Shown here piece by piece: positions 3,006 through 21,950 of a stretch of 23,071 nt of DNA. A model generated the notes under the pieces. That model worked only from the letters and a program-made list of their open reading frames with translations. It searched no databases and was not told the DNA's origin. The position numbers and the translations under genes are program-made. Each line of letters starts with the position of its first letter. The stretch's first letter is position 1. This stretch comes from a virus. Location: the IMG/VR virus record IMGVR_UViG_3300042878_001581, positions 1-23,071 of that record, one strand, 5' to 3'.

Positions 3006-4619
3006 CTAAACTAAAGTTCCTCCTTGGAAATAGTTTGGTAAAAATCCTGTTGATAATTGGAATGATGTTCCATTAAATGTTGTATACATTCTATATGTTC
3101 CAGCAGGAAGATTTGTACTTCCTGAATAGTTTATTATTAAACTGTTATAAGTTGGACTCACTGTTCTTGATACCATACCTCCAGACGATGTACCGTTCTT
3201 AACTGTAGAATATTTTTGTCCGTTTGTTGCTCCCGTTGAAACAAATACTGTAACCCAACTTGTTGCTGTAAATGCTCCGATAGGTATTTGAACAGTTTGG
3301 AATGTATATGCCACGATAGGATTGCCATAGGCATCATTACCACCAGATGTTGTTGATATTGGTGCCGTTATGATTGCTGGTTCATCTCCTGTCGCTAAAC
3401 TTCCTGTCCATCCTGAATAAGCAATGTATGCGTTCATCTGAGCATCAAATGTTCCTTGAACTGTAGATGGACTAGAAGAACCTGCAACGTTAAATCCTTT
3501 GAATTGTCCAGGGGCAACAAATCCTTGTGAAATCATCCAATTAGACAAATTAGTTCTAGGTATTGCTGCACCTGTATCCATGAATACATAAGCGAATAAC
3601 GGAGCGTTTGTTGGTGTAGGTGAAGGTGTATTAGTTGGCGTTGTTGTATTAGTTGGTGTCTGTGTTTGTGTTACAGTTGGTGTATTTGTTGGCGTTTCAG
3701 TAGGTGTTGAAGTTACGGTTGCAGTATTAGTTGGCGTCGGCGTCATAGTCGACGTTTCAGTGGCCGTTGCAGTAACCGTTGCAGTATTAGTTGGAGTAGG
3801 TGTTGATGTTGCGGTTTCAGTAGGTGTTGATGTTGCGGTTTCAGTAGGTGTACTTGTAACTGTTGGAGTTTGAGTTGGTGTTTCAGTTGGAGTACTTGTT
3901 GGAGTCTCACTTGGTGTATTTGTAGGAGTTGCGGTATTAGTTGGTGTTACTGTAGGTGTTGAAGTCTCAGTATTTGTTGGCGTATTTGTAGGAGTCTCGC
4001 TTGGAGTCTGTGTTGGAGTTTCTGTATTAGTCGGAGTTACACTTGAAGTATTTGTTGGTGTATTTGTAGGCGTTTCTGTTGGAGTTGGTGTTGACGTTTC
4101 AGTATTAGTTGGCGTGTTTGTAGGAGTCTCACTTGGAGTCTGTGTTGGAGTTTCTGTATTAGTTGGCGTGTTTGTAGGAGTCTCAGTATTTGTCGGAGTT
4201 GAAGTTACGGTTTCAGTTGGCGTATTTGTTACGGTATTTGTAGGTGTAGTTGTTGGAGTAACTGTTGGTGTTTGAGTTGCGGTTTCAGTTGGGGTAGGGC
4301 TAGCGCCTGAGGAAGCCGTTTGACTTGGTGTATTAGTTTGAGTTGGAGTATTTGTTGCTCCTGGTGTTGCCGATGGAGTTGGTGTGGGTGTTGGTGTTAC
4401 ACATTCTAAAGTAACAACAATACCATTAAACATATCGTTTCTTGATGCCGCAGAATAGTAGATAATATCGTCTACATAAATATTAAATGGACCAAGAGCA
4501 TTTGAATTAGAAGCTAATCTAACAATGTATGTGGTACACCCTGTTACCGTTAATTGTTGTTCAATTTCGGTATCACATCCTGGAGCGTTATTTGTGACAA
4601 GAATATTATAAGTGGACAT
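3006..4619 (-). CDS. Thr/Pro-rich stalk protein, putative virion fibre or whisker
   Basis: This 537-residue protein has three parts. Residues 1-73 form a small Cys-containing N-terminal domain with the segment GPFNIYVDD. Residues ~74-339 are a low-complexity stalk of Thr-Pro, Thr-Asn-Thr-Pro and Thr-Glu-Thr units. Residues ~340-537 form a compact Gly/Ser/Thr-rich C-terminal domain ending in GTLV. The layout of anchor, rigid extended linker and tip domain suits a fibre-like virion protein. The dense Thr/Ser would suit O-glycosylation if the host has such a system. No signal peptide or membrane anchor is seen, so a virion role is more likely than a secreted cell-surface role. It is preceded by a 106-bp gap holding a TATTTAT motif. 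I recognise no catalytic motif; the function is inferred from architecture and context. Confidence 0.8.
3601..4400 (-). repeat. Low-complexity Thr/Pro-coding repeat
   Basis: The DNA encoding the Thr/Pro stalk is built of imperfect six- and twelve-base units (ACT/ACA plus CCA/CCT/CCG, AAT, GAG). The copies differ at third positions, so the tract is less homogeneous at DNA level than the collagen-like tract. It has no conserved spacer-repeat structure. Confidence 0.75.
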
Positions 4620-4725: not shown

Positions 4726-5064
4726 TCATATATCACTCGAATATATGTTGAAATCACAATTTGATTCTTGAATATCAATGTTCACAATACAAGACGCCAA
4801 TTCAATTGTAATTTGGAAAGTACATCCAAATGTGCAGTCTAAAATTTTAAATACAGTGCAATTATTGGAGTCAACTAATGTCAACATTATTTGAGGAGCA
4901 GTCTGAAAAATTGAAGGTATTACTGTGTTATAATAAACTGTAGGTGGGACCGCAGTACTTATGGTACCAATCAAAGTTTGATAATTTCCATAAACATCCG
5001 ATATGTAAACACTAAACGGATACGCAGTACTTCCTGATATTTCGGTTATTCTAACTTGTGTCAT
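4726..5064 (-). CDS. Small hypothetical virion-associated protein, 112 aa
   Basis: I do not recognise a family. The protein is Ser/Thr/Ile-rich with five cysteines in its C-terminal half and no signal peptide or membrane helix. Residues ~15-25 (YPFSVYISDVYG) match in pattern the N-terminal segment GPFNIYVDD of the next protein downstream. Its C-terminal segment (ASCIVNIDIQESNCDF) resembles the strand-Cys pattern at the start of an SprB-like unit in the gene upstream. Its ATG overlaps the stop of that gene by four bases (ATGA), implying translational coupling. It may be a small adaptor or accessory subunit of the fibre cassette; this is inference. Confidence 0.7.
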   Translation of the reverse strand: MTQVRITEISGSTAYPFSVYISDVYGNYQTLIGTISTAVPPTVYYNTVIPSIFQTAPQIMLTLVDSNNCTVFKILDCTFGCTFQITIELASCIVNIDIQESNCDFNIYSSDI

Positions 5065-7196
5065 GATAAACAGATTATGTCGTAAACAATCACTAAGTCG
5101 ATAATAATTTCTTGCCCTTGCAATGACGTATTATCTCTACTTGTTTCAATTGTTATTTGATTATTTAATTGGTCTATAATTACGTCACCAACACCTGGCA
5201 CGCTTAGTAGTAACGATTTGACCGTATTATACCAAGAGTTATCACTTGGAGCTTGTACTAAAGATGTTGATGTAAAGAAGTTTTGTTGTGTTGTTAGTCC
5301 CGCGGGATTTACCAAAACTTTAGCGGTAAAAGTCGCACTAATCAAATTACAACTTGTGTTTCCTGTAGTTAAATCATAAAATCCTTCATTCAACATTTGT
5401 AATAATCCAAATTTAGTTGGTGAGGTAATGTTGAATACTTCTGCCCCCATAACATACGTTTGATATGAAGTGTAGTTTGTATTACATGTTATTGTTGCGT
5501 TTCTTGTTAGAGTACATCCATTTGCATCAACAACCGTTAAACTGTATGTCCCGCCTGTTAATCCTGTTACTTGAATTTGTTGTGGTTCGTTTGGTACGTT
5601 ATTAGACCAATTGAAACTAAATGGAGGCTCACCTGAACTAATAAATGCGGTTATTTGTCCACTATTACCACTTCCACAAGAAGTCGTATACAATGAATAA
5701 TCCAAACGTTGGCTGAATGGGATTAAAAAGTTAGAAGTTTGAACACACCCATCTGAATCTGTTACTGTCACGGTATGTGTTCCTGCAGGTAAATTATTGA
5801 AGGTTACCGCACTTAAACTTGTGTCGATTACATTAAATATTCCATCAACCGAGTAGTCTAAAGGCATTGTTCCCCCTGTTGTTGAATAGACGGTCACTTG
5901 TCCATTATTTTGGTTACAACTCGTTGAAACAACCTCCGTTGATATTGTAAATTTATTTTCGGCAATGATAGTTACTTCTTGAATAAATGAGCATCCTGTG
6001 GCATCAGAAACCGCAACTGTATATGTCCCTGTGCCTAATTCGTCAAAGACTTGAGTTGTTTGGGAGTTACTAATGTTTGTTTGAGCACCTGAAGGATACA
6101 CTAAAGTGTAGGTGTATGGCGTTGTACCTCCGACGACTAAAATCTGAATTGACCCATCAACACTTGAACAAGTTGAATTTTGATTATTTACAGATACTGA
6201 AGTTATTCCTCCAGGTGTTTGTAATGTTGTTCCTGCAAATGTTTGACAGAATCCTGCATCAGTTACTTGGAAGTTATAATTTCCTGCCGATAAACCCGAA
6301 ATTGAAAATGTCTTACTATACGATACCTCAACATTTCCTGTTGAGGCCGAATAATAATATGGTGCGGTTCCCCCTGTAATGGTTAAACTAATAGTACCAT
6401 TACTTTGGAGACATGACGGTGGTGTTGAAGTAATAACTCCTAAACCAATTTGATTAACATTGGTTATTGACCCTTCTGCGGATTTTGTACATCCATACGC
6501 ATCTGTCACAGCAACTGAATAATTACCTGAGGTTAATCCTGTAATTGTACTCCCTGTTTGACCATTACTCCAAAGATATGAGAATGGAGCTTGTCCTGTT
6601 TCTCCAGTCACGATAATCTTACCGATAGGTATTCCACCACAACTAGAATTAGGGACCACATATAAACCAAAATTAAATTCTTCAGAAGTGTCAATTATAA
6701 AACTTTGTGTTGCACCTGTACACCCTCCTAAATCTTCTGCAATTATATAATACGTTCCAGCACTTAATCCCGCAAATACAATTTCAGATGTATTTGTTGT
6801 TGCAGATTGAACCACGGAATCATTTATTCCCAACAAATAAAAATTTGTCGATGAATATTGTGAGCTTGATGTTCCTGTAACGGACCCATTAAAAAAATTA
6901 CATGTTGTATTTTGTACATTAAGAATTGTTGCACATACTCCATTTGAAACCGGAATATTGATAAAAAATTCTAAGTTAGTAGGTAATGTACTATCATTAA
7001 CCCTAACATTATATGTTGATGCGTTAAGTCCTGTGACCACAGACGGCTCTATTGTTACTACATTTGTTTGAGTTAAAGGTGATTGCCATTGCACGGTATA
7101 AGGGGGTGTTCCTCCAAATAAAGACAATTCTATTGCACCACTACCATTATTACTGCAATCCCCTGTTACGGATATATTATAATTAAATTCTGCCAT
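5061..7196 (-). CDS. Protein with seven SprB-like repeats, putative virion adhesin
   Basis: The 711-residue protein has seven repeats of the SprB type: a Cys-containing strand, then G-G/E-T-x-P-Y/F, then GLxxGTYxVxVxDxxGC. The units fall roughly at residues 13-70, 89-159, 186-236, 262-317, 343-402, 427-484 and 507-561. A unique C-terminal domain (~570-711) ends in IICLS. SprB repeats are best known from the giant cell-surface gliding adhesin of Flavobacteriia. Here the gene sits in a phage structural operon, lacks a signal peptide and a visible type IX secretion C-terminal signal, and starts at a TAATG junction with the 995-codon tail gene. It is therefore best read as a virion protein using adhesin-type beta modules, perhaps for host binding. 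The repeat call is confident from the pattern; the role is inferred. Confidence 0.85.
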   Translation of the reverse strand: MAEFNYNISVTGDCSNNGSGAIELSLFGGTPPYTVQWQSPLTQTNVVTIEPSVVTGLNASTYNVRVNDSTLPTNLEFFINIPVSNGVCATILNVQNTTCNFFNGSVTGTSSSQYSSTNFYLLGINDSVVQSATTNTSEIVFAGLSAGTYYIIAEDLGGCTGATQSFIIDTSEEFNFGLYVVPNSSCGGIPIGKIIVTGETGQAPFSYLWSNGQTGSTITGLTSGNYSVAVTDAYGCTKSAEGSITNVNQIGLGVITSTPPSCLQSNGTISLTITGGTAPYYYSASTGNVEVSYSKTFSISGLSAGNYNFQVTDAGFCQTFAGTTLQTPGGITSVSVNNQNSTCSSVDGSIQILVVGGTTPYTYTLVYPSGAQTNISNSQTTQVFDELGTGTYTVAVSDATGCSFIQEVTIIAENKFTISTEVVSTSCNQNNGQVTVYSTTGGTMPLDYSVDGIFNVIDTSLSAVTFNNLPAGTHTVTVTDSDGCVQTSNFLIPFSQRLDYSLYTTSCGSGNSGQITAFISSGEPPFSFNWSNNVPNEPQQIQVTGLTGGTYSLTVVDANGCTLTRNATITCNTNYTSYQTYVMGAEVFNITSPTKFGLLQMLNEGFYDLTTGNTSCNLISATFTAKVLVNPAGLTTQQNFFTSTSLVQAPSDNSWYNTVKSLLLSVPGVGDVIIDQLNNQITIETSRDNTSLQGQEIIIDLVIVYDIICLS

Positions 7197-10183
7197 TAGT
7201 TACCACTACAATTTATACTGATGTTTATTCCCGAATTTAACGATAGAATTTCATCAAGATTTCTATCTGTACACGTTAAACTTGTAATTGTTAAAAAATT
7301 TCCATTTAAATAATATGTATATCCAAAATCATATAATAATGGTAGGTACTGAATTAAAGCATTTCTCCAAACCCTATTTGAAGGTACGTCAGTTAGCCCA
7401 TACCCCGTGTAAAACAATTCTTGTATAAGAATATCACCACCTATTCGTAAATCAACATACCAACTACTTTCAACTGAGTTTTGAACACAGTCATTTAGGG
7501 TGAGCCCACTTGATGCTAACATTGAATTCACTCTATTCGATAAAATCCCACTAAAGTTACTAACATTAATATCATCATTTAACCATGGATATATGTTAAA
7601 ATCCGTATATTCCGTTGTACAAGTATAATCGAATATGTTTGATATGATATAACAAGGGTCAACAGGTACTGGTATAAACTGACATCCTCTTTGTCTTCTA
7701 TAAACAAACTTTTGTTTATGTAAAACTGAGTTTTCCATTTTAACACCTGTATTCCAAATAGTTGTTGCAGGAATCATTTGTTCCACCAACTTCATCCAAT
7801 AAGGACCAATACCGTTCACGTAATCGATTAATTTTTGATACGTATATTTGTTATTTGGTAAACCGACTGTTTCTTCCGATTCAATGTATTTCCACCAAAT
7901 AGATTGTAAGGTAGGGTATCCCCCCGTCTTACCATCTGAGATATATTGTCTATTTCTAACATTAATCATATTTTCCCAAAAGGTTTGAGAGAATTCAAAG
8001 AATGTTTTCTTTTTTGGTTCAGGTTTAATGAATGTCCAATCAACTCCACCTGGAACAGGATATCCGACCGTCAAACCTGATTCAGGTATTGGATAGTCAT
8101 ATCTTCTTGATTGGTCCCAAACATCATATACAAGACCTTGTGCTGGGTTTAAGAACAAATCAACGTTTTTAACGTTCATTACCAATTTCTCATTATCAAC
8201 ATAATAATATGCGTTGTAATCCGCATTAGTTGACACCCTAATTCTATTATCCTCTTCCAACCATGACTTATTATTATCAACTATTTTAGTTAATTTAAAC
8301 CCTTCAGTCATGTACGGGAAATCTCTAAATCTATTTAAATATTCTTGACCATAAGTAAATGGTGATAAGGTAGTTTGAATGTCGTAGTTTTGTCCAGTAT
8401 AAATATTTCCTGTAATTTTAACTTGGTCAGGGCTTCTATGTTGCGGTGTAACTTCATACCATCCAGCACCCACTTGGAAAAAATAATCTTCAGTATTAAT
8501 TGGTGCCGATGGAAAACCTAAATTATCTATTGGGTAGTCTTGTAACTCAACGTTAGCATTCTGATAAGTTGCCGTTGAAGTAAACCCTGAATAAACACGT
8601 CCTTTAATTTTATATGTCTGTCCCGGCAAATATGATGGAATATTATCAACATAAGTTCCACCTGAAATTCTTGCCCATTGTGTGTAGAACTGGTCTAAAT
8701 TAATTTTTTGGTCCGCAAGGTAAATATTCTCGTTAAATTCAATTAACGAATCTGGAGCGCCGATTAACCTCATCATAAACTCAACAGACCTTCTTGTTCC
8801 TTTAGATTTGAAAAGGTATGCTGCATTCAAAATTAAGTTTCGATAAAACGAATAGTTTAATTCCGTTGGGGTTAACGCTCTGGCGTATCCAGGGTATGTT
8901 GGTGTTGTTGTATTCCCAAAAACAGAACTTAAAAAGTCTTCGTTAGTTATCGGTGAAAAATTTGATGTCCACCCTAACGTTTGAGCTAAATTCACAAGTA
9001 ATTGTGATGGTATATCATTTGATGGATTATAACTAACGGAATTCATGTACGCTAACGCATCAATGAATTGTTTAACTTGGTCAAAACTTCTACCATAAAT
9101 TTGAAATATTTTTTCAACTTTTTGTCCCATAGTATCAAACTCTTTTAATGAGTCTGTTACCAAGAACCTTGATAAGAAATTACTCTTAAATGAATCTAAA
9201 TTTATCGCAATAGACTCTAAACTATTTAAGTAGTCGTCAAATAAAAACGACCTAATATTAAGGTTCCACTCACCATCTTTAGGCCATGTGACCGATTGAT
9301 AGTTAGTGTAAAACTCACCATTTTCTGTTTGAGCCGGCACTTGGAAAACCGCCGTGTATTCAGGTCTAACAAGTCGATTTAATAAGAATTTCTCAACTTC
9401 ATCAAAGTCTTCGGAAAATATCTTATCAACAATAAAGTCGTTTGGTCTTATTTGAAAGTTTTCATTAAAAGTTGTTGCGGTTGCGCCAAATGGTGAGCCT
9501 GATACATAAAATTGTAAGTATCCCGTTGACAATGTCTCTGACGGTGTAAATGATACAATGTTATATATGTTACCGTTAATACTGACCGCGTAGTCTAAGT
9601 AAGTATTATATAAGTTCCTGTAGGGTGACACAATTATTTCTCTAACAGATAAATTAGTTGACGCACTTATTGAATAATCAATGTCGAATGGATTATTAAT
9701 TCTATCAACATCAACTTTGAAGTATGTCTCGTCTTGCACTGAATCGTAATCAATATCAAATGCAGTTGCACCTGTTATAAAATCTAAGTTAGTAAATATA
9801 ACATCTAATGCTGCGGGAAAATAATTAATTATTTTTGTAACTGAAACTTGAAATCTTTTACTTAAAGACCCGTACATTGAGAAGTTTAAAACTTGTGACA
9901 CGTCGTAGTTTGGGTACACCCTAAACTGAGTTGCCATAATTCTTCTACTCTCAGTTAAATCATTAATATCTAAATCACCTAAACTAATTGGTTCCGAAAA
10001 CGCTCCAACACTAAAGGTCCTATTAACCTTTTCAACAACTGAAGTTGTGAACTCAAAGTTACCTTGCGTAAGCCCACCACCCTCTACTGTTTGTAATCCT
10101 ACAATGTTGTCAGAAAAGGTTGCCGCCCCACTACCAGGTCTTGGGGGGTAAAAGTATTTTGTATTCTTTTGCGTTATCGCCAT
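7196..10183 (-). CDS. Large tail/baseplate protein with a P2 gpI-like K-G-T motif
   Basis: This 995-residue protein begins MAITQKNTKYFYPPRPG and is soluble throughout, with no signal peptide. Its central part (about 320-480) is helix-rich and contains RNLILNAAYLFKSKGTRRSV at ~448-467, followed by EFMMRLIGAP. A leucine-rich stretch ending in K-G-T-x-x-[AS]-[VI] and then a short hydrophobic helix is characteristic of P2 gpI-type tail proteins and of large tail proteins in environmental phages. Gene order after gp25- and gp6-like genes fits a wedge or tail-fibre attachment role. The C-terminal region has scattered cysteines (ISNIFDYTCTTEY; ends INCSGN). It overlaps its upstream neighbour by one base (TAATG) and its downstream neighbour likewise. 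The family assignment rests on one motif and context. Confidence 0.75.
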   Translation of the reverse strand: MAITQKNTKYFYPPRPGSGAATFSDNIVGLQTVEGGGLTQGNFEFTTSVVEKVNRTFSVGAFSEPISLGDLDINDLTESRRIMATQFRVYPNYDVSQVLNFSMYGSLSKRFQVSVTKIINYFPAALDVIFTNLDFITGATAFDIDYDSVQDETYFKVDVDRINNPFDIDYSISASTNLSVREIIVSPYRNLYNTYLDYAVSINGNIYNIVSFTPSETLSTGYLQFYVSGSPFGATATTFNENFQIRPNDFIVDKIFSEDFDEVEKFLLNRLVRPEYTAVFQVPAQTENGEFYTNYQSVTWPKDGEWNLNIRSFLFDDYLNSLESIAINLDSFKSNFLSRFLVTDSLKEFDTMGQKVEKIFQIYGRSFDQVKQFIDALAYMNSVSYNPSNDIPSQLLVNLAQTLGWTSNFSPITNEDFLSSVFGNTTTPTYPGYARALTPTELNYSFYRNLILNAAYLFKSKGTRRSVEFMMRLIGAPDSLIEFNENIYLADQKINLDQFYTQWARISGGTYVDNIPSYLPGQTYKIKGRVYSGFTSTATYQNANVELQDYPIDNLGFPSAPINTEDYFFQVGAGWYEVTPQHRSPDQVKITGNIYTGQNYDIQTTLSPFTYGQEYLNRFRDFPYMTEGFKLTKIVDNNKSWLEEDNRIRVSTNADYNAYYYVDNEKLVMNVKNVDLFLNPAQGLVYDVWDQSRRYDYPIPESGLTVGYPVPGGVDWTFIKPEPKKKTFFEFSQTFWENMINVRNRQYISDGKTGGYPTLQSIWWKYIESEETVGLPNNKYTYQKLIDYVNGIGPYWMKLVEQMIPATTIWNTGVKMENSVLHKQKFVYRRQRGCQFIPVPVDPCYIISNIFDYTCTTEYTDFNIYPWLNDDINVSNFSGILSNRVNSMLASSGLTLNDCVQNSVESSWYVDLRIGGDILIQELFYTGYGLTDVPSNRVWRNALIQYLPLLYDFGYTYYLNGNFLTITSLTCTDRNLDEILSLNSGINISINCSGN

Positions 10184-12225: not shown

Positions 12226-13056
12226 TTATGGATTTACATATTCATACCATTTTATGGGTAAATTAGTCCCTAATCTTTGACCGTATGTATTAAAAACTTG
12301 GTACGTTTGAGTTGGGTAATCCAACTTAACCGTATAGTATAAAAATTGTGTATTATCGAAAGCGTATTTATTTGTTCCTACTCCAAACAGGGCTTGTGGT
12401 CCGTCGGTTAAGTCAAACGGTGTTGTTCCTTTACCCGTCATCATTGTCGTAAACTGACCTGTTTTGGCATTAAAAAATTTGGCGCTCATGTAAAAGGTAT
12501 CGATATCCAAAAATGTTCTTTTCTTTAACCAATAAAGGAAAAACCCTTCCTTATCTCCAACATAATCTAAAACAAATTCAGGTTTTTTAATTGATACCAA
12601 CGTTCTTTGCATCTGAGTGTCCATCTTCAACCCTTGTTGTGTTGGTAGAATAACTGTTAAATAATTAGTTTGTTTCTTTTCATCGGGAGTGTCGTAAAAA
12701 TCCAACTTAAAAAATGAGTTAGTGAAATTGTTTTCGTAGTAATAAACCTCTTGAGGTGTAAACCCTTCACTTAGATAGTTAACTCTCCAATTATTAATGT
12801 CATTCATCGAACCACCTGAATAGAAATAAAACTCATAGTTGATTTCGGTGTTATTCGTTGTTCCTGTTGCAGGGGCATGAGCAAACCTTGAGATTTCAAA
12901 ATCTCTACCGACACCGATAACTTCTGTCACAATGTTTGTTTCGTATTCATCAATAGCCATATCTAATCCCAAGTAGTCCCATTTAAGTTCTACCGGAATG
13001 TTGATTTGTTTATCATCAAATCCATCTTGTCTAATAATAAATTTATTCACACTCAT
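12226..13056 (-). CDS. Hypothetical virion structural protein, 276 aa
   Basis: I do not recognise the family. I chose the ATG at 13056 (MSVNKFIIRQDGFDDKQ) over a TTG one codon upstream, because ATG starts are the rule here. The protein is rich in Tyr, Phe and Asn, looks beta-structured, and has no signal peptide or membrane helix. Its 5' end overlaps the 3' end of the 563-codon gene by 14 bases, and its stop lies two bases before the ATG of the 362-codon gene on the downstream side. Tight packing with baseplate genes argues for an assembly-module protein. Confidence 0.75.
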   Translation of the reverse strand: MSVNKFIIRQDGFDDKQINIPVELKWDYLGLDMAIDEYETNIVTEVIGVGRDFEISRFAHAPATGTTNNTEINYEFYFYSGGSMNDINNWRVNYLSEGFTPQEVYYYENNFTNSFFKLDFYDTPDEKKQTNYLTVILPTQQGLKMDTQMQRTLVSIKKPEFVLDYVGDKEGFFLYWLKKRTFLDIDTFYMSAKFFNAKTGQFTTMMTGKGTTPFDLTDGPQALFGVGTNKYAFDNTQFLYYTVKLDYPTQTYQVFNTYGQRLGTNLPIKWYEYVNP

Positions 13057-14734
13057 CAATTAACGGTTTAAATGAGAAGTCACTTTGAACTTCGTTATAA
13101 TTTATCCCCTCAGGTATTAGTCTAAATACAACATTTTTAAACGGATAATGGGCAGTATTAAAAAACGGGTATTCAACACCTCTATCAAGATTATCTACAA
13201 AACCATAAGTATATAAATCTCTCCATCTAAATTGTTGGTCAGCCGAAGAATAAAACGACCAACTAGGCGCTTGGTCTAAAAACCCAATATCCGCAGTTTC
13301 AATATAATCTGAAAATACTCTTAAAGTCATGGGATTATGTGGTTTATAATAATACCCTGGAGCGTTGTTTGTTGGTACCGTGGTAGTTGCAAATACGGTT
13401 TGATTGAACTTCATTTTGTGATAATATGGTGACACAACTCTTTCCGCCTGTTCGTAGTCATTCCACTCACAAAAATCTCCATCCATGATATCATCCTTTT
13501 TTAAATCCAAGTTATAGAAGAAACTTTTGGTTTCACCATTAGTTAGTGTATATCCCGAAACAGGAATTGTTGTGTTTGATTTTTGGTTATTATCGCTCCA
13601 CCAAGGATTAATTGTTTTTGACAAATTAAACTCCCATCCTTGTTTTAGTCCAATACCATCAAAAGGCATATTAAAATATCCTGAGAACCCTTTATTTATG
13701 ATTGTAAGATTAATCTCAGACAATGGTCTCATTTGGTTATCTCTATATCCTGCCAAATCAATATCGTAATTCGATGTGAAGTTATAGGCGTTACTACTAG
13801 ATTTTTGTGAAACTCTCGTAACATTGTTTGGGGTTATTGAACTGTATTCTAACTTCATTTGTTCCCCAAAAACATTCTTTTCAAAACCAACTTTAGTAAC
13901 CGCTAAATCAGTTAGGTTAGTTAGTACCTTATACTGTTTAACATAATACTCTGACCTTGTTTCCGTTAAATTATCAGGATTAATCACTCGTTTAAAAGTA
14001 CCTGTAGTACCGTTATTGAATGTTGTGCCCGTATACCCAATGTTTAATACATTAAACGTATACACATCTGTACCGAATAATCCAGTCCCCAGTGAATACA
14101 CTTGAAAGATGTTTGAATTTCTATAAGTTAATGATAACTCAACATACTCATTTGGTGTTAGTCCGTGAGGAGCAACGCAAGTAAATGAAATTAACCCATT
14201 ACCATTTTGTGATGTATTAGTAATTGTAAACGCAATACCATCACTAGCCTTCCAAGTAATATCGTTAGAGTCACTTGAATAATATGTTAATTCTTTATCG
14301 TAATCATTATCTGAAGGATAAGTTAAATAATATGTCCAATTGTATGTGTAAGCACTTTTAGCTTTATATTGAAAGTATTGGTCCTTAACATCGGGTCTAT
14401 AAAAATCAAACTCATAATACTGTGGAAACCCCCTCCAAATACCACTTTGTTTTGACGATTCGGGAGAAGTGTAATAAAGATTATCTCGAAATGGTATATA
14501 ACCTGTAGTACCTGTATAAGCGTTATCGTATAAATAAGTGACTTTAAATGTAGGTCTAAAAATAGTACATACCTGTCTTTCATCGTCATACACTTGAGCG
14601 AGACTTACTGTAGCACTTCTGTCGTACTCGGTAATTTCCTGACTTTGTTCGTCAAGATTAATCGAAATTTTCTGATTAACAGATGGTGCACCCTTATACT
14701 TTAAACCACTTGGAACTATTGTATATCTATTCAT
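13043..14734 (-). CDS. Hypothetical baseplate/tail structural protein, 563 aa
   Basis: The protein starts MNRYTIVPSGLKYKGAPSVN and ends FKPLIDECE. It is very rich in Tyr, Asn, Thr and Phe, appears to be mainly beta sheet, and has a Tyr-rich N-terminal third (residues ~85-150). I see no enzyme motif, signal peptide or membrane helix. Its ATG overlaps the stop of the 1588-codon gene by eight bases, so the two are probably translationally coupled and their products may interact. In T4 the genes after gp6 encode the remaining wedge proteins gp7 and gp8; this gene stands in an equivalent place, but I see no sequence match to either. Structural role inferred from context. Confidence 0.75.
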   Translation of the reverse strand: MNRYTIVPSGLKYKGAPSVNQKISINLDEQSQEITEYDRSATVSLAQVYDDERQVCTIFRPTFKVTYLYDNAYTGTTGYIPFRDNLYYTSPESSKQSGIWRGFPQYYEFDFYRPDVKDQYFQYKAKSAYTYNWTYYLTYPSDNDYDKELTYYSSDSNDITWKASDGIAFTITNTSQNGNGLISFTCVAPHGLTPNEYVELSLTYRNSNIFQVYSLGTGLFGTDVYTFNVLNIGYTGTTFNNGTTGTFKRVINPDNLTETRSEYYVKQYKVLTNLTDLAVTKVGFEKNVFGEQMKLEYSSITPNNVTRVSQKSSSNAYNFTSNYDIDLAGYRDNQMRPLSEINLTIINKGFSGYFNMPFDGIGLKQGWEFNLSKTINPWWSDNNQKSNTTIPVSGYTLTNGETKSFFYNLDLKKDDIMDGDFCEWNDYEQAERVVSPYYHKMKFNQTVFATTTVPTNNAPGYYYKPHNPMTLRVFSDYIETADIGFLDQAPSWSFYSSADQQFRWRDLYTYGFVDNLDRGVEYPFFNTAHYPFKNVVFRLIPEGINYNEVQSDFSFKPLIDECE

Positions 14735-17700
14735 CTAATGAGTATTTTGTTTTAAATCTGTCTAAAGCAGATTGCCCTTTAACCACACCGAAATAGAATT
14801 GGAATGGTGCTCCAACTAAAAATCTACTTGAAGTTTGTGGTGTTGAGGTGTATTTCCCTCCTACAGTCGGGTAACTTGTTACATTTCCGTCTACACTATA
14901 TATGTACCCTCTAGCGGTTAAGTCATTAGCTATAGATGTTCCATTTAGAAAGTACTTAGTATTTGTTGTTGACCTATCTAACCCTTGATAATTATTCTGA
15001 ATAATGTCTTGGGGGGTGGTTGCCCAATCATTTAATTGGTTTCCAAAAATCGTACTACTATCAGGATTTAATTTCCACTGATAAAATGGTACTAATTGTG
15101 ATTTAATACCATACGGATATGGGTAGTATCCAACATTGTCCGAACCTCTAAAATTAATTCTACCAGGTGTTAGGTAGTCTTTAGTTTGTAAATCTTGAGT
15201 TGTTGATGAAAACCATACAGCCATAATTGGGTCTTCACTTGTACCTAATATGTTTGTTGGGTTAATTGCTCCAGGTCTAATATTGTAGTATTCAGGTGAG
15301 AAATTTACATTACCTATCTCCGAATTTATTGACATAAGTTGAGCTAAGTCGCCATCAATTCGTCTTTCGGGTCTTGAAAATAATTGATTTAGAGAATTGT
15401 CACCCAATGGTATTATATTAGATAAAAATGAATTATCCGTAATACGAGAGATTACAAATAGATTAACTAAGTCCGAAGTGTCCCCATAACTTGTAGAATC
15501 AATATTCGGTATTATATATCCTTTTGTTGATGAGTCGAAGGTTATTTCGGAATAAAAGTAATCTTTCATTCCTAAATTTATGATTGTGGTTGGAAATAAT
15601 AAATTTAAATCATTTAGTGTTCCAACGTTCCCTGTTCTTTTACCAATAAATTTGTTTAAACTATCACTCCACGGACTACTTCTATAATAAAAATTATTAC
15701 TATCCATATTGAAATAAACAACTTCGTTGGCAAACCTTGGATATTCAGGTTTATTCTTACTATCATAATAAGTGTTTACCTGTAATGGGAACATATATAA
15801 CGAACCATTAATCCAATTATTCATAAAGGATTGAGAAAGTACTCCTCGACACAACCCATAGAAAAATCTAAATCTGAACCCCCATTCTCCGAAATTACTG
15901 ATGTCTTTACCTAAATCAAGTAATGGTCTTCTCAAAAACATGTAACATCCTCCCTCAACAGCGTCTTTGGTAGTACATTGTTGATTAATCGTGAAATTAT
16001 CTCCAAATCCTGTGTAACAGTCTAATCCAACCATACTCTCACAGTTGAAACTTTCTATTACAGTAATCTCATTAGGAAGTCCTTCTAAGTCAGGAGTTAT
16101 TGTCTGAGCACCTGTTGAAAACGCATCTGATGTAATATCCTCGGAATCAGTGTTAATTAAGTAAACACTGAAATTATTATTTTGTTGTAGTAACGATGGG
16201 TTATTAATAAATGAAGAGCCATCTAATCCGTCTGATGATGGAAGTCTATCTGTTCTTAAAATATTTTTAACATCATTACTAATTGTCATAGTTGGATTTG
16301 TACTAAAAAATGTTTTAGTGTAGTATGAATAACCTAACTCATTAAAAAATGGATTACTTAATTTAAGTATGTTAAAATTATTACTACTTATGAATGCAGC
16401 CCCACTAACATCTTCAGATAAATCGTATTTCGATGCGGATTCATTTGAAGTGTAAAACCCATTTGAAGTTATTGTAATCACCTTACCAGAACTTATTGTG
16501 GTTTTATTAGGTCTTGTTGCCGTTGTTGAGTCAAGTAATCCATAATACGCGGTATTGGTAGTTGTAAATCCTGTGAAGGATTGTCCCGCTGTTGGTGTAG
16601 TTGTTGTCCCTGGTTTGAAAAAATATGACTGAAAATACATCTCATCTTGATTGTAGTTTTGAATCGTGGGACTACTCTGATTAACTTTTTGAATTGGTAT
16701 GTTTATTCTAGTATTGGCAGTAAATGTCCAATTAGGGTCGTTTTCATTCGTTCCAAATAAATTACCGAGACTATATTCATTAGCATATTTTGGAGAATAT
16801 GGGTCCACTCCTCGTTGGAGTACTAAAATATATTGACTACCACCATCAGTAAAATATTCATACGGACTAATATTTTCAGTGGTTTCTATTTCCCATTTAC
16901 TACTTCTTAAAAAATTAGAATCCACATAAACATAACGTAACGTTTGACTATTAGCGTATAATATATCACCAAAAGACTGTGTAGTGTTTTTATTCCATAT
17001 CTTCGCAGCGTCTGATACAGTTATAGCAGTCACTACCTGATAATATTCCACATCTGAAGGGAATTTATAATTCGTTTCTTCAGAACCATAAGGAAGTACA
17101 TATCTTACAGGAGTAACAATATTTGTTGTTTGGGTTGTTGCATATGAAATGTCTACATATGTTGCGCCACTGCCGTTATACGTTTCCCCACTAATACCCG
17201 TTATAATACCGTCCGCAGTTGAAGCACTATAAAGGTAATTTGTGTCTGTGGTGGCACTTAAATTAACAAAAGTCAAAAGGTCTCCAGCCTCAAATTGTTC
17301 TTGACACAGTACTGTTATTGTATTATCATAATGATATTTTCCAAGATTATTATCTTTTGCAAATGTTAATTTTATTTTATTTTCTCCGTTAAAGTAAGAA
17401 CTTCTATTATTAAAAATATTGATTCTTTCACCGATTGGTAAGTCAGTAGAAAGAACTGTTCTTGAAATTAATTCTTGTGAAAGAGGTATTTTATACCTTG
17501 TTGTATCTCCAATATATTGTTGTAGTCCCATACCAGCAATTGCCTCGGAGTTCATTATAGATAGGTCATCCCCATTTTCAGTGTCTGCTGAAAATTTAAC
17601 TGACGCCAATAAATCATAATATGAATCAGGCGAGGACACGTAACTTAAAATACCTGACCCTGTTTCATTTTGACCAGCATTTCTAGATGTTTTTAAATTT

Positions 17701-19493
17701 TGAGAACACTCGCAAGCCTGACATTCAGGATAGGTTATCATTGGTAGTCTAATCGTATAATCTTTCTTATTGCAATTAATATTTAACGCTTTGCAAATCC
17801 ATCTGAACGGGTAAACTTTAATAATTGGTATTCTAGTACCACAAATCCAACATATTACTTGAATAACTAAATTATATAGAAAAATTAATATGTGAGCAAC
17901 AGTTAACGTAATTAACGCAACTGGTTGTATTACAGTAAAAATTATTGAAAATAAAAAGAATAGGAAATCAAAATTCCTAAACCCGTCATTAACAGGAAAC
18001 TTATTTACACTATCTTCACAATCTTGGCTGTCAATTTCTTTAATACCAATAAATTTACCATTCCCTCTACCCTTTTTAAATTGGTCAATTAACGAAGACA
18101 CAGTGTAAACTCTGTTATATTGAAATTCATAGAACGTGTCTTCACAATCAATAATCTCATTAAGTCTGTCAATTCTTGATTGTCCTATAAATCCGTTAGT
18201 ATATCCACTCCATACCAACCCAAAATAATATGAACTTTGTTGCTGTCTTTTTTCATTAGTATTAACTAAAGGAAATAACACTGATGGAGATGGGTCGGAG
18301 GATGGAGAAGTTCCCCACCCATACTCTTTAACGTTTGGAACCAAATAATAAGGCCTTCTTGTTTGTAAGGTTAAATCGTTTGGCTGAGACCATTTAATCT
18401 TAAATCGATATTTTGATTTAGTTGGTATTCCGACAGCTGGGTCATTTGAAAGTACTTTTTCCCCAAATTCGTTGGTAATGAAATAATCCAAATTCATTGG
18501 TAATTCGATTAACCACGTTCCACTACCGTCAATAACATTACCCGATTGTTCTAATTCATATTCTTCTAAAATAGGATTTCCATCTTCGTCTTGTTGGATT
18601 GTTTGTCTAATTGCCAATATTTGACCTGGAGACGTAGTTAAAGAACATAAGTTTCCCATATTATCTCTTGGTCTAGCATTAGCCCTTAACCTAAAACTAT
18701 CCGCTGTTGAAAACATTGAACCCATAAACACAGAGGTTGGTTGGATGTCCACGTTCGCATCATCTCTTAAATCAAAGTCTAATCTGTTTACTGCAATTTC
18801 ACAGACTGTTGGGTCACCCCATAAAGGAGATATGTCAACATTTTTAGTTAGATTAATTATTTGAGGTAATGAATTTAAATCTGTTGACGACCTGAATCTA
18901 CTGCCCGCAACTTGAGCTTCACTCGCAAGACCAATTCTTATTAAATCTTGTGGTGTTAATGAAAACTCACCAATGTCCGATAAATCAACATCCATAACAA
19001 TATTTTGTTCCCCTAAAGGAACTCCCATTATCATGTAATCACCACTCTCATTTGTCTTAGCTGTATATCTATAATACGTATCAAAAATTTCAACCGCGGT
19101 TGTATCTATTAACACGTCAGACCTTGTCGGTAATGTCCCCGTTGCCGAGTGAGTGGAATAAGAATTTTCGTATGGTAAAAGATTATATCTAAACCCATCT
19201 TCATTTTTATCACTTGGAGACTTGTAAGGGTATATACTTGAAATTAATGGGTTTGACTCATCTATTGGAGTAACAGGTATAAATACAGATACTCGAGCAT
19301 TAGGTAACCCTAAACCATTATTAGCGGTTACCCTACCGACAAGAACACCATAATCCGCACAACTTCTTGTGTAAACATCAGATTGTTGTATCTTTAACGA
19401 TAAAATTTCCAAAAACTCAAAGTCTTGGTCTAACTGTATATTAATCGTTTTGTTAGCCCCGAGTTCAGTTTTTATTCTATATGATTGACCCAT
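14727..19493 (-). CDS. Giant baseplate/tail protein with N-terminal regulatory-like beta sandwich and a central membrane-like hairpin
   Basis: This is the largest gene, 1588 residues. Residues ~48-72 (YGVLVGRVTANNGLGLPNAR onward) with ~148-170 (NESGDYMIMGVPLGEQNIV) match the two halves of a carboxypeptidase-regulatory-like beta sandwich, split by a ~75-residue insertion. Residues ~507-552 form two adjacent very hydrophobic segments (FDFLFFLFSIIFTVIQP and VAHILIFLYNLVIQV). Cysteines follow at about 548, 551, 567, 574, 591, 594 and 596, including C-W-I-C and C-Q-A-C-E-C. The remaining ~1000 residues are polar and beta-rich, ending near FQFYFGVVKGQSALDRF. Lying directly after gp6, it takes the place T4 gives gp7, but homology is not evident. 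The membrane hairpin and possible metal site are unusual for a baseplate component. Confidence 0.8.
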   Translation of the reverse strand: MGQSYRIKTELGANKTINIQLDQDFEFLEILSLKIQQSDVYTRSCADYGVLVGRVTANNGLGLPNARVSVFIPVTPIDESNPLISSIYPYKSPSDKNEDGFRYNLLPYENSYSTHSATGTLPTRSDVLIDTTAVEIFDTYYRYTAKTNESGDYMIMGVPLGEQNIVMDVDLSDIGEFSLTPQDLIRIGLASEAQVAGSRFRSSTDLNSLPQIINLTKNVDISPLWGDPTVCEIAVNRLDFDLRDDANVDIQPTSVFMGSMFSTADSFRLRANARPRDNMGNLCSLTTSPGQILAIRQTIQQDEDGNPILEEYELEQSGNVIDGSGTWLIELPMNLDYFITNEFGEKVLSNDPAVGIPTKSKYRFKIKWSQPNDLTLQTRRPYYLVPNVKEYGWGTSPSSDPSPSVLFPLVNTNEKRQQQSSYYFGLVWSGYTNGFIGQSRIDRLNEIIDCEDTFYEFQYNRVYTVSSLIDQFKKGRGNGKFIGIKEIDSQDCEDSVNKFPVNDGFRNFDFLFFLFSIIFTVIQPVALITLTVAHILIFLYNLVIQVICWICGTRIPIIKVYPFRWICKALNINCNKKDYTIRLPMITYPECQACECSQNLKTSRNAGQNETGSGILSYVSSPDSYYDLLASVKFSADTENGDDLSIMNSEAIAGMGLQQYIGDTTRYKIPLSQELISRTVLSTDLPIGERINIFNNRSSYFNGENKIKLTFAKDNNLGKYHYDNTITVLCQEQFEAGDLLTFVNLSATTDTNYLYSASTADGIITGISGETYNGSGATYVDISYATTQTTNIVTPVRYVLPYGSEETNYKFPSDVEYYQVVTAITVSDAAKIWNKNTTQSFGDILYANSQTLRYVYVDSNFLRSSKWEIETTENISPYEYFTDGGSQYILVLQRGVDPYSPKYANEYSLGNLFGTNENDPNWTFTANTRINIPIQKVNQSSPTIQNYNQDEMYFQSYFFKPGTTTTPTAGQSFTGFTTTNTAYYGLLDSTTATRPNKTTISSGKVITITSNGFYTSNESASKYDLSEDVSGAAFISSNNFNILKLSNPFFNELGYSYYTKTFFSTNPTMTISNDVKNILRTDRLPSSDGLDGSSFINNPSLLQQNNNFSVYLINTDSEDITSDAFSTGAQTITPDLEGLPNEITVIESFNCESMVGLDCYTGFGDNFTINQQCTTKDAVEGGCYMFLRRPLLDLGKDISNFGEWGFRFRFFYGLCRGVLSQSFMNNWINGSLYMFPLQVNTYYDSKNKPEYPRFANEVVYFNMDSNNFYYRSSPWSDSLNKFIGKRTGNVGTLNDLNLLFPTTIINLGMKDYFYSEITFDSSTKGYIIPNIDSTSYGDTSDLVNLFVISRITDNSFLSNIIPLGDNSLNQLFSRPERRIDGDLAQLMSINSEIGNVNFSPEYYNIRPGAINPTNILGTSEDPIMAVWFSSTTQDLQTKDYLTPGRINFRGSDNVGYYPYPYGIKSQLVPFYQWKLNPDSSTIFGNQLNDWATTPQDIIQNNYQGLDRSTTNTKYFLNGTSIANDLTARGYIYSVDGNVTSYPTVGGKYTSTPQTSSRFLVGAPFQFYFGVVKGQSALDRFKTKYSLDE

Positions 19494-19589: not shown

Positions 19590-21428
19590 TTAAGAGAAGG
19601 TAACTGATTGGAAATTTTTAACCGAAACTCTAATGTCTTTGTTTGGATAACGAATTTGATATACTTGTGAGGGTTGAGCAAATACCGTATCATCAACAGG
19701 AGCAATTTCTTTAGTTTCAGGATTTGAATATTCCATTGAGGTTTCTGCTGAAGAATACTGACCACCCACATTATTGTAAACATTAATTCCTGCAACAGTT
19801 AATACCCCATTTTGATTTTGGATAATACTTCTTAATTCAGAAAGATATACGTTTTGACCTAATTCCCTTACTTGTGGGTTAAAGTACGCCGAAATCTTAT
19901 CAACAACATCTGTAATAACTTGTCCTGAGTTTTGAGCAGAATCTAATACAATTTGAACATCAATGCTAAGGTCAATAACCTCAGCGGTTAAGATTGAAAT
20001 GTAGTCATTCATCATTCTATAATTTGATAGGTATGTTGCAACATTTTGTCTCAAAGTGTCAGAAACAATATTGGTTAATTTACCTGAAGTGTCGTAAGAT
20101 AATAACTGAATTAATATTTTGTTATTATTTTCAGTTATTGAAACTTTTGCAGGTGCTCCAAATTCTGATGGCATATTTCTGATTATAGACTCATAGTCTT
20201 GAACTGTAACCGCTCTTTTCTGAGCCGAGAAGTTAAATGAGACGTAGTTTCTAATTTCTTCTAAAGACGGGAGACCTGCTCCACCAATTGCCGCAGTTAC
20301 GTTGGTACACCTTAATGAGTTAACTACCGAAGAATTTGTTAATTCTGAAGGACCGTTAACATAGAACGATACTGTACCAATTTGATTAATTACATTGGTA
20401 CCTAAGTTTGTTGCCAAACCACCACCTACTCTGTACTGAACAAATAGTGTTGAGTTTGGAGTTAATGCTGAACCTAATGAGAAATTGTTTGAATATCTTT
20501 GTAAGTCTAATGTAGTTCCTAATGTTGTGAATTGATTTAAAGCATCTTGAGCTGTATTGGTACCACCTCCAAATGTCATCTTCTTAAACCCTTCAGGGGT
20601 ATACTCACTAATGTACCTATCTTGAGTTTGAATATATCTACCAACTTTAATTCCTGGTTGGTCCGACACCTTTGTTGGGTCCTCTATGAATACTCTATCT
20701 TCAGCCAAAGCGTCAACTTCATACCATCTATTTGAAACACCTAAGAACTCAGCACTTGTTGGTATGTTAGTATATTCGGTACCACTTTTAAGTAATACAC
20801 TGGTGATACCTAAAACATTTTTTTCAGGTAAGAATAATTCGAAAAATGGTCTAACATCATTTGGACTAATAACTCTTTTGAATACTTTAGTTATACCATT
20901 GACCACCAGTTCTCGTTTAGTAATTGTATAATTAATTAAAACATTATTGGCGTTGAAATTAGGTATTTTTAATCTATTTGGAAAACCTTGAGCATTGTAT
21001 GGTGAAGTAAAATCAATATCATATATGTTTTCAAATACAATACCTGCACCAGTTACTTGTGAACCTCTTGTTAATGTACCCAAATATCTTTCGTCTTCTT
21101 TATCTCCAAATGCCGGTACAGTAATTGAGAAGTCGACAAGAGCAACTGAAGGTCTTTGCCCCGGTAATTTTAGGCCATAGGTTCTTGCTATGTTATAAAT
21201 TGAAGACCTTTGTTGGGCGTATTGAAGGACTGTCTCTTGAATACTTCTATCGATATGGTAATGTAAGTTATCGGCTACGGCTGCATTCAAATCTAAAAAG
21301 ACCGAAAATACCGATGCGTCATTAAAATCCTGTATAAGTTCAGGGTAATATGTTCTCACATAATTTAGTAATTCAGTTCTTATACCCTGATAATCTCTGG
21401 TTGTATACGATATTTTACGATTTGCCAT
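19590..21428 (-). CDS. Baseplate wedge protein, gp6 / baseplate J-like
   Basis: The 612-residue protein is close to the ~660 residues of T4 gp6. The N-terminus shows the family pattern: RTELLNYVRTYYPELIQDFN, then DASVFSVFLDLNAAVADNLHYHIDRSIQET, then a tA-x-x-R-x-S-x-x-x-x-A-x-x-x-G-x stretch (QQRSSIYNIARTYGLKLPG). This is the hallmark of baseplate J/gp6 wedge proteins, which dimerise and connect wedges around the hub. The C-terminal half includes SLEEIRNYVSFNFSAQKRAV and VQDYESIIRNMPSEFGAPAK, also typical of this family. It follows the gp25-like gene by five bases, matching the usual gp25-gp6 wedge pairing in contractile tails. No signal peptide. Confident in family, less so in detailed orthology to T4 gene 6. 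Confidence 0.88.
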   Translation of the reverse strand: MANRKISYTTRDYQGIRTELLNYVRTYYPELIQDFNDASVFSVFLDLNAAVADNLHYHIDRSIQETVLQYAQQRSSIYNIARTYGLKLPGQRPSVALVDFSITVPAFGDKEDERYLGTLTRGSQVTGAGIVFENIYDIDFTSPYNAQGFPNRLKIPNFNANNVLINYTITKRELVVNGITKVFKRVISPNDVRPFFELFLPEKNVLGITSVLLKSGTEYTNIPTSAEFLGVSNRWYEVDALAEDRVFIEDPTKVSDQPGIKVGRYIQTQDRYISEYTPEGFKKMTFGGGTNTAQDALNQFTTLGTTLDLQRYSNNFSLGSALTPNSTLFVQYRVGGGLATNLGTNVINQIGTVSFYVNGPSELTNSSVVNSLRCTNVTAAIGGAGLPSLEEIRNYVSFNFSAQKRAVTVQDYESIIRNMPSEFGAPAKVSITENNNKILIQLLSYDTSGKLTNIVSDTLRQNVATYLSNYRMMNDYISILTAEVIDLSIDVQIVLDSAQNSGQVITDVVDKISAYFNPQVRELGQNVYLSELRSIIQNQNGVLTVAGINVYNNVGGQYSSAETSMEYSNPETKEIAPVDDTVFAQPSQVYQIRYPNKDIRVSVKNFQSVTFS

Positions 21429-21433
21429 CTATA

Positions 21434-21904
21434 TTAAATATTAATAATAACAAAATCACTCTGAGCAAATGTGTTACTATCTACTGAGTAATCTATTTTA
21501 ATTTTTGCAGTGTATTCTGAAGTCCCTTTTCCAGGAAACCTATAAATTGGTGACTCACTAGTCCCTACTATATTTTGTCCTTCCGCAATATCCACTTCTT
21601 CCATTGGGTCTGCGGGTGTGATTGAGATATTATTTAATAGTAAATTTGGCATGTATCTTGATACCGCTTCTCTGATATCAGATTGAATAGCATCAAATGT
21701 AAGACCATCAAAAGGTTCAAATAAAAATTCATATAATCTTGTTCCAAAATCAGGTAAGTAATATCTTGTTCCCTTTCTGGTTAATAATAAGTGAACTAAA
21801 TCCGCTTTAATCTGTTGAGCCTCAAACTCTGTTAATTGTAAGTAATCCCCTCTTTTAGAATCTCTAAAAGGAAAATTAATACCATATGTAGTTCCATCTG
21901 CCAT
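21434..21904 (-). CDS. Baseplate wedge protein, gp25-like
   Basis: The 156-residue protein is slightly longer than T4 gp25 (132). The core pattern is clear: LLLTRKGTRYYLPDFGTRLY followed by EFLFEPFDGLTF and DIREAVSRYMP. This is the conserved gpW/gp25 signature, in which a Lys-Gly-x-Arg loop, Pro-x-FG-x-x-L and E-P lie in order. gp25 proteins join the inner baseplate to the first sheath ring and are needed to trigger contraction. I start at ATG 21904 (MADGTTYGINFPF). A GTG 42 bases upstream would place the hairpin and promoter-like motif inside the gene and add a segment without family similarity. The nearest purine-rich run (GAGGG) is ~17 bp from the ATG, too far for a normal Shine-Dalgarno. 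Confidence 0.9.
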   Translation of the reverse strand: MADGTTYGINFPFRDSKRGDYLQLTEFEAQQIKADLVHLLLTRKGTRYYLPDFGTRLYEFLFEPFDGLTFDAIQSDIREAVSRYMPNLLLNNISITPADPMEEVDIAEGQNIVGTSESPIYRFPGKGTSEYTAKIKIDYSVDSNTFAQSDFVIINI

Positions 21905-21906
21905 AA

Positions 21907-21943
21907 CTATAAATATAATACCCTCGTTTTTCCTTATAAATAG
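21907..21943 (-). promoter_or_regulatory. Two TATTTATA-type elements upstream of gp25, candidate late promoter
   Basis: On the minus strand CTATTTATAA (21943-21934) lies immediately downstream of the nrdA terminator stem, and TATTTATAG (21915-21907) lies a few bases before the ATG. The first shares ten bases with the 15-mer found before the 302- and 1588-codon genes. Standing between a terminator and the first gene of the structural operon, it is in the right place for a promoter. Activity is inference. Confidence 0.45.
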
Positions 21944-21950
21944 CACAAAA

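Follow-up and report, generated by a model that had tools for sequence, protein, structure and literature searches.

SprB-type repeats are Ig-like domains found in tandem in adhesins of Bacteroidota, among them SprB of Flavobacterium johnsoniae and the grappling-hook protein GhpA of Aureispira. The 711-residue protein described here has the same tandem architecture, and GhpA is its best match both structurally and among PDB sequences. It is encoded at positions 5061..7196 of a 23,071-base virus record, hereafter called the window; all genes and domains of the window mapped below are on the minus strand. Unlike the SprB-type adhesins, however, the phage protein has no signal-peptide-like start and no type IX secretion system (T9SS) domain, consists of a fixed number of seven units followed by a phage-type C-terminal domain, and is encoded in a phage tail operon. 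Ig-like modules are also part of phage virions, in Hoc and other decoration proteins (phrog_3945, phrog_2973), the profiles of which are matched by the repeats; unlike hoc, the repeat gene lies beside baseplate genes, and the C-terminal domain of its product is homologous to that of a baseplate-operon protein. Arrays of another domain family, BACON, vary in copy number, unlike the invariably seven-unit array of the window protein. A report on crAss-like phages (PMC6949934) likewise describes a phage protein bearing the Bacteroides-associated BACON domain in tandem. A phage protein of the kind analyzed here is already listed in UniProt, in name only, as “SprB repeat” (A0A6J5LD72, from an uncultured Caudovirales phage), and no study of such proteins was found in the partial literature library searched.

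The repeat gene starts with ATG and ends with a stop codon at 5061-5063. The seven units are arranged as follows: unit 1 (6939..7196, amino acids 1-86), unit 2 (6678..6938, 87-173), unit 3 (6450..6677, 174-249), unit 4 (6207..6449, 250-330), which yields the top match to the Pfam SprB family PF13573, unit 5 (5955..6206, 331-414), unit 6 (5712..5954, 415-495) and unit 7 (5481..5711, 496-572). The PF13573 profile matches the complete protein with 80.9 bits (E = 5e-23), with five stretches passing individually, and two single repeats, alone or with their neighbours, exceed the curated cut-off of 28 bits. When each unit was compared with an HMM of the other six, the scores ranged from 26.0 to 47.4 bits, whereas the best of 1000 shuffles per unit reached 16.2 bits, so the array cannot be attributed to chance and the presence of seven SprB-type repeats in 5061-7196 is confirmed. 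In the AlphaFold2 model (mean pLDDT 83), these form seven beta-sandwiches that are followed by a disordered linker and an alpha/beta domain.

The sequence-only reading of this DNA had described seven units with shared motifs. The number of units holds in the leave-one-out comparison, but the exact GGTxPY motif is present only in units 1, 4 and 5 (three of the seven), and unit 1 lacks the final GC, so these motifs represent a consensus rather than universal features of the repeats. The absence of a signal peptide, claimed in the same reading, agrees with the protein start, MAEFNYNISVTGDC, which, as judged by eye rather than with a predictor, contains no hydrophobic core. A Pfam scan of the 711-residue protein detected no T9SS sorting domain of the CHU_C/TIGR04131 type; a comparable scan did pick up CHU_C in a secreted-type protein of the record LR756502, which is discussed below. 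The proposed coupling to the adjacent genes is also evident: at 7196, the start codon shares bases with the TAA stop of the upstream gene (TAATG), and the next gene is coupled through ATGA at 5064-5061.

Overlooked in that reading was the part of the protein that follows the repeats, namely, a flexible linker (~573-595; 5412..5480), for which the full-length model gives pLDDT values below 50, and a non-repeat alpha/beta domain (amino acids ~596-711; 5064..5411). The invariant QMLNEGF core of this domain, for which we propose a docking function, is the longest invariant run of the repeat protein among 31 phage sequences. A profile of the C-terminal region (573-711) matched the phage loci and had no match in the LR756502 locus or in 79 bacterial-genome loci, which were picked by similarity to the whole repeat protein and thus represent a selected set rather than a full genome survey. 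The same profile matches the C-terminus (7199-7636) of H995, the 995-residue product of the baseplate-operon gene at 7196..10183 that is coupled to the repeat gene by TAATG, with an HMM domain E-value of 4.8e-6 and, in hhalign, E = 1.1e-6 at a probability of 91%; a second, weaker match covers residues 270-316 of H995 (E = 1.5e-4). By these profile comparisons, the C-terminal domains of the repeat protein and H995 are homologous. Within H995, the homologous domain ranks among the less conserved parts, which counts against the proposed docking. The domain common to the two proteins offers a starting point for studies of how such arms are attached to the virion.

A structural search of the PDB with the C-terminal domain yielded no significant match, so no known structure underlies the proposed docking function. 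The sole significant match in the viral structure library is A0A6J5LD72 (E = 1.4e-10, TM 0.82), a 714-residue protein whose structure matches the domain and which very likely belongs to the same family as the window repeat protein. The second match in this library, which is not significant, is an uncharacterised phage protein of 985 residues, a length close to that of H995. Homology of the C-terminal domain to the 112-residue protein encoded next to the repeat gene, or to the N-terminus of the 537-residue protein beyond it, was not supported. Likewise, a suspected identity of H995 as a P2 gpI-like connector gained no convincing Pfam match across the 31 relatives and no convincing PDB match.

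We also considered LR756502.1, a 642-kb record deposited as a phage, which encodes at 12784-17796 (locus L077) a 1670-residue protein with 13 SprB repeats. This protein resembles the host adhesins in its signal-peptide-like start, its PKD domain and its type IX secretion domain (CHU_C). There is no match to ribosomal protein S3 or Terminase_6C in the record. Because no H995 match was found there and the C-terminal domain was not detected in the fetched locus, the membership of LR756502 in the phage group analyzed here is not supported.

The assignment of the neighbouring genes to the phage tail in the sequence-only reading fits the operon, which encodes, upstream of the repeat gene, a gp25-like (21434..21946; phrog_261, 3e-18) and a gp6-like (19590..21428; phrog_6, 4e-24) baseplate wedge subunit. 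The gp6-like gene is separated from the remaining operon genes by one for a 1588-residue protein (14727-19493, minus strand) with only a weak CarboxypepD_reg match. On the other side of the repeat gene, and coupled to it by ATGA, lies the gene for the 112-residue protein (4726..5064), which belongs to no known family in Pfam or PHROGs, followed by those for the 537-residue protein with a long Pro/Thr-rich stalk (3006..4619) and for a collagen-like, (GTSGTDG)n fibre-type protein that is truncated by the contig end (1..2952). In the cultured Microcystis phage Mel-JY01, a tail-lysozyme (gp25-position) gene precedes one whose product is partly similar to H995.

On balance, the repeat protein is probably a tail component of a large, contractile, T4-related phage of Bacteroidota, namely, a baseplate-docked arm of seven domains that contacts the host. 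Under this scenario, the seven Ig-like domains would make up a flexible rod of constant unit number, the alpha/beta domain in common with H995 would dock this rod in the baseplate/fibre complex, and the rod, with the variable first repeat probably outermost, would touch the host surface during adsorption. Whereas the repeat array with its age and constant unit number, the synteny, the homology of the C-terminal domains, the host signatures and the contractile tail of relatives are demonstrated, the presence of the protein in the virion, its docking through the C-terminal domain, its orientation and its role in host contact are inferred. Such an arm would tie a host-adhesin module to the baseplate region of widespread, large freshwater phages of Bacteroidota and would allow a concrete test of the engagement of the host adhesin layer by phages that infect gliding bacteria.

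Relatives of the repeat protein are encoded at 69 distinct viral-contig loci, with 35-85% identity; after the removal of near-copies, 30 non-redundant relatives remained, for a total of 31 sequences including the window protein. Within the DNA fetched for them, the 30 relatives keep the gene order E277-F362-G302-H995-repeat protein, with D563 present in most, and conservation declines towards the fibre side, from 69-98% in G302 (302 residues) to 49-93% in H995 and 36-85% in the repeat protein. Each of the 31 sequences has the complete set of seven repeat positions (217 units). The length of the repeat protein is mostly 708-713 residues; the longer relatives consist of 740, 788, 815, 848, 854, 874 and 1095-1097 residues, and the locus of the single shorter one (664 residues) ends at that point. 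At least three of the longer relatives (L057, L048 and L065) extend beyond the C-terminal domain with a Pro/Thr-rich stalk plus another domain, and a similar stalk is encoded in the window by a separate gene, the one at 3006-4619. This fusion suggests a joint action of the repeat and stalk proteins in one complex. A contractile sheath match was found in five relatives, and two of the five relatives searched for it encode a capsid protein of the gp23 type. Pfam and PHROGs scans named no fibre-side protein of the 309-kb relative (G001), and the search for a terminase with PF17289 in this genome and in LR756502 found none, a result that is uninformative.

The similarity to decoration proteins raises the alternative that the Ig-like array is anchored on the capsid or neck and extends from there, not from the baseplate, in the manner of a Hoc-like head decoration or a whisker like T4 wac. 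The best PHROGs matches of the repeats are indeed to the Hoc-like family phrog_3945 (1.1e-9), which is matched by 13 of the 31 relatives and, in the window protein, by units 6 and 7 over residues 451-565; sequence searches of the PDB return, among others, 9occ, a putative neck whiskers protein, and the decoration proteins 5lxk and 8zvi, and in T4, wac, the neck whisker gene, follows the baseplate and short-fibre genes. The baseplate is favoured instead by the homology between the C-terminal domains of the repeat protein and of H995, its neighbour in the baseplate operon. In the 309-kb relative, moreover, the repeat gene lies near 90 kb and gp23 near 197 kb, ~106 kb apart, although T4 hoc is not located beside gene 23 either. 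All considered, a head or neck location appears rather unlikely, though it deserves attention.

A different possibility is that the repeats are a structural spacer or a rod that sets length, with receptor binding performed by the neighbouring collagen-like and Pro/Thr-stalk proteins. The fixed number of units, purifying selection (dN/dS below 1 in every unit tested) and the long stalk or collagen-like proteins encoded next door, or the stalk fused to the repeat protein in relatives, are all compatible with a spacer. Unit 1, however, is the most divergent unit between closely related phages (70% identity in close pairs versus 82-88% in the other units), as expected of an exposed contact surface, so we consider a pure spacer function unlikely. 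For the host-contacting arm that we favour, this divergence suggests that the N-terminal end is exposed and points outward. The divergence of unit 1 could instead reflect relaxed constraint, and the compared pairs share ancestry and are not independent. Given the stalks fused after the C-terminal domain in relatives, the C-terminal side can project as well, and the C-terminal domain may sit mid-fibre.

The sequence-only reading had named host surface glycans as a possible target of the repeats and had also raised the possibility that the repeats were borrowed from hosts. In a tree that combines 84 units of 12 phages with 80 repeats for comparison (79 of them from bacterial genomes and one from LR756502), built from 83 alignment columns with a bootstrap that had not settled, units 1 to 6 each form one clade by position across the phages, and unit 7 requires two changes, for which one long-branch row is responsible. 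The comparison repeats, those of Bacteroidota included, join only at deep, poorly supported forks. Recent borrowing is thus not supported: across the phage group, the units are orthologous by position and, as judged from this tree, the seven-unit array has long been a fixed component of these large contractile-tailed phages. The tree argues against recent acquisition and does not bear on the first source of the array. The earlier attribution of SprB repeats to Flavobacteriia proved too narrow: the link to Bacteroidota stands, but the nearest cellular repeats span many lineages of this phylum, and the nearest genome loci all belong to Bacteroidota except for one Glaciecola genome.

The age of the array also bears on the idea that it imitates or binds SprB-type adhesins of the host, such that the phage would dock on, or ride, moving adhesin filaments. 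The divergence of the phage repeats from those of the hosts is ancient, with no indication that the former track the latter, and Ig-like modules are commonly plain spacers or glycan binders. On the other side, the phage repeats belong to the same family as those of the host adhesins, and in Flavobacterium, the gliding machinery has been proposed to include the phage receptors (PMC7345892). Such imitation or binding seems to us quite improbable, and we would give still less credence to its most specific form, in which the arm would bind the mobile host adhesin by repeat-repeat contacts, with the gliding machinery serving as the receptor and carrying the phage along the surface.

That the host belongs to Bacteroidota, as the sequence-only reading surmised from the repeats, is supported independently of them by scarce Shine-Dalgarno motifs, enriched promoters and relatives that encode bS21. 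The TTTG-N17-21-TAnnTTTG pattern, which is the Bacteroidota-type promoter, occurs 64 times in the 309-kb relative, versus 23 for its mirror image, and 14 versus 3 times in the family loci. Shine-Dalgarno-like motifs (GGAG, GAGG or AGGA) precede 9 of 196 genes in the 309-kb relative (4.7 expected) and 3 of 72 genes in 11 family loci (1.6 expected), compared with 25 of 39 genes (6.1 expected) in a stretch of T4; according to PMC9976891, Shine-Dalgarno sequences go unrecognised by Bacteroidia ribosomes. Genes for bS21, a trait of freshwater phages with predicted Bacteroidetes hosts (PMC9723584), are present on the contigs of two relatives. A spacer-like search against 400 Flavobacterium genomes, in which two candidates were scored per genome, returned three matches with 72-88% identity over 42-99 bases.

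Several additional features of the related phages were observed. In the 309-kb relative, an extra ORF of 279 residues with a zinc-finger-like METKVCTKC motif lies between the F362 and G302 genes (95138-95977) and is possibly an inserted homing endonuclease, and two ORFs in the fibre region (78294-80008) resemble, by eye, a glycosyltransferase and a sulfotransferase. Short SprB-like matches were also found in other proteins of the related phages, at 74247 in G001, 162009 in G004 and 64207 in G007.
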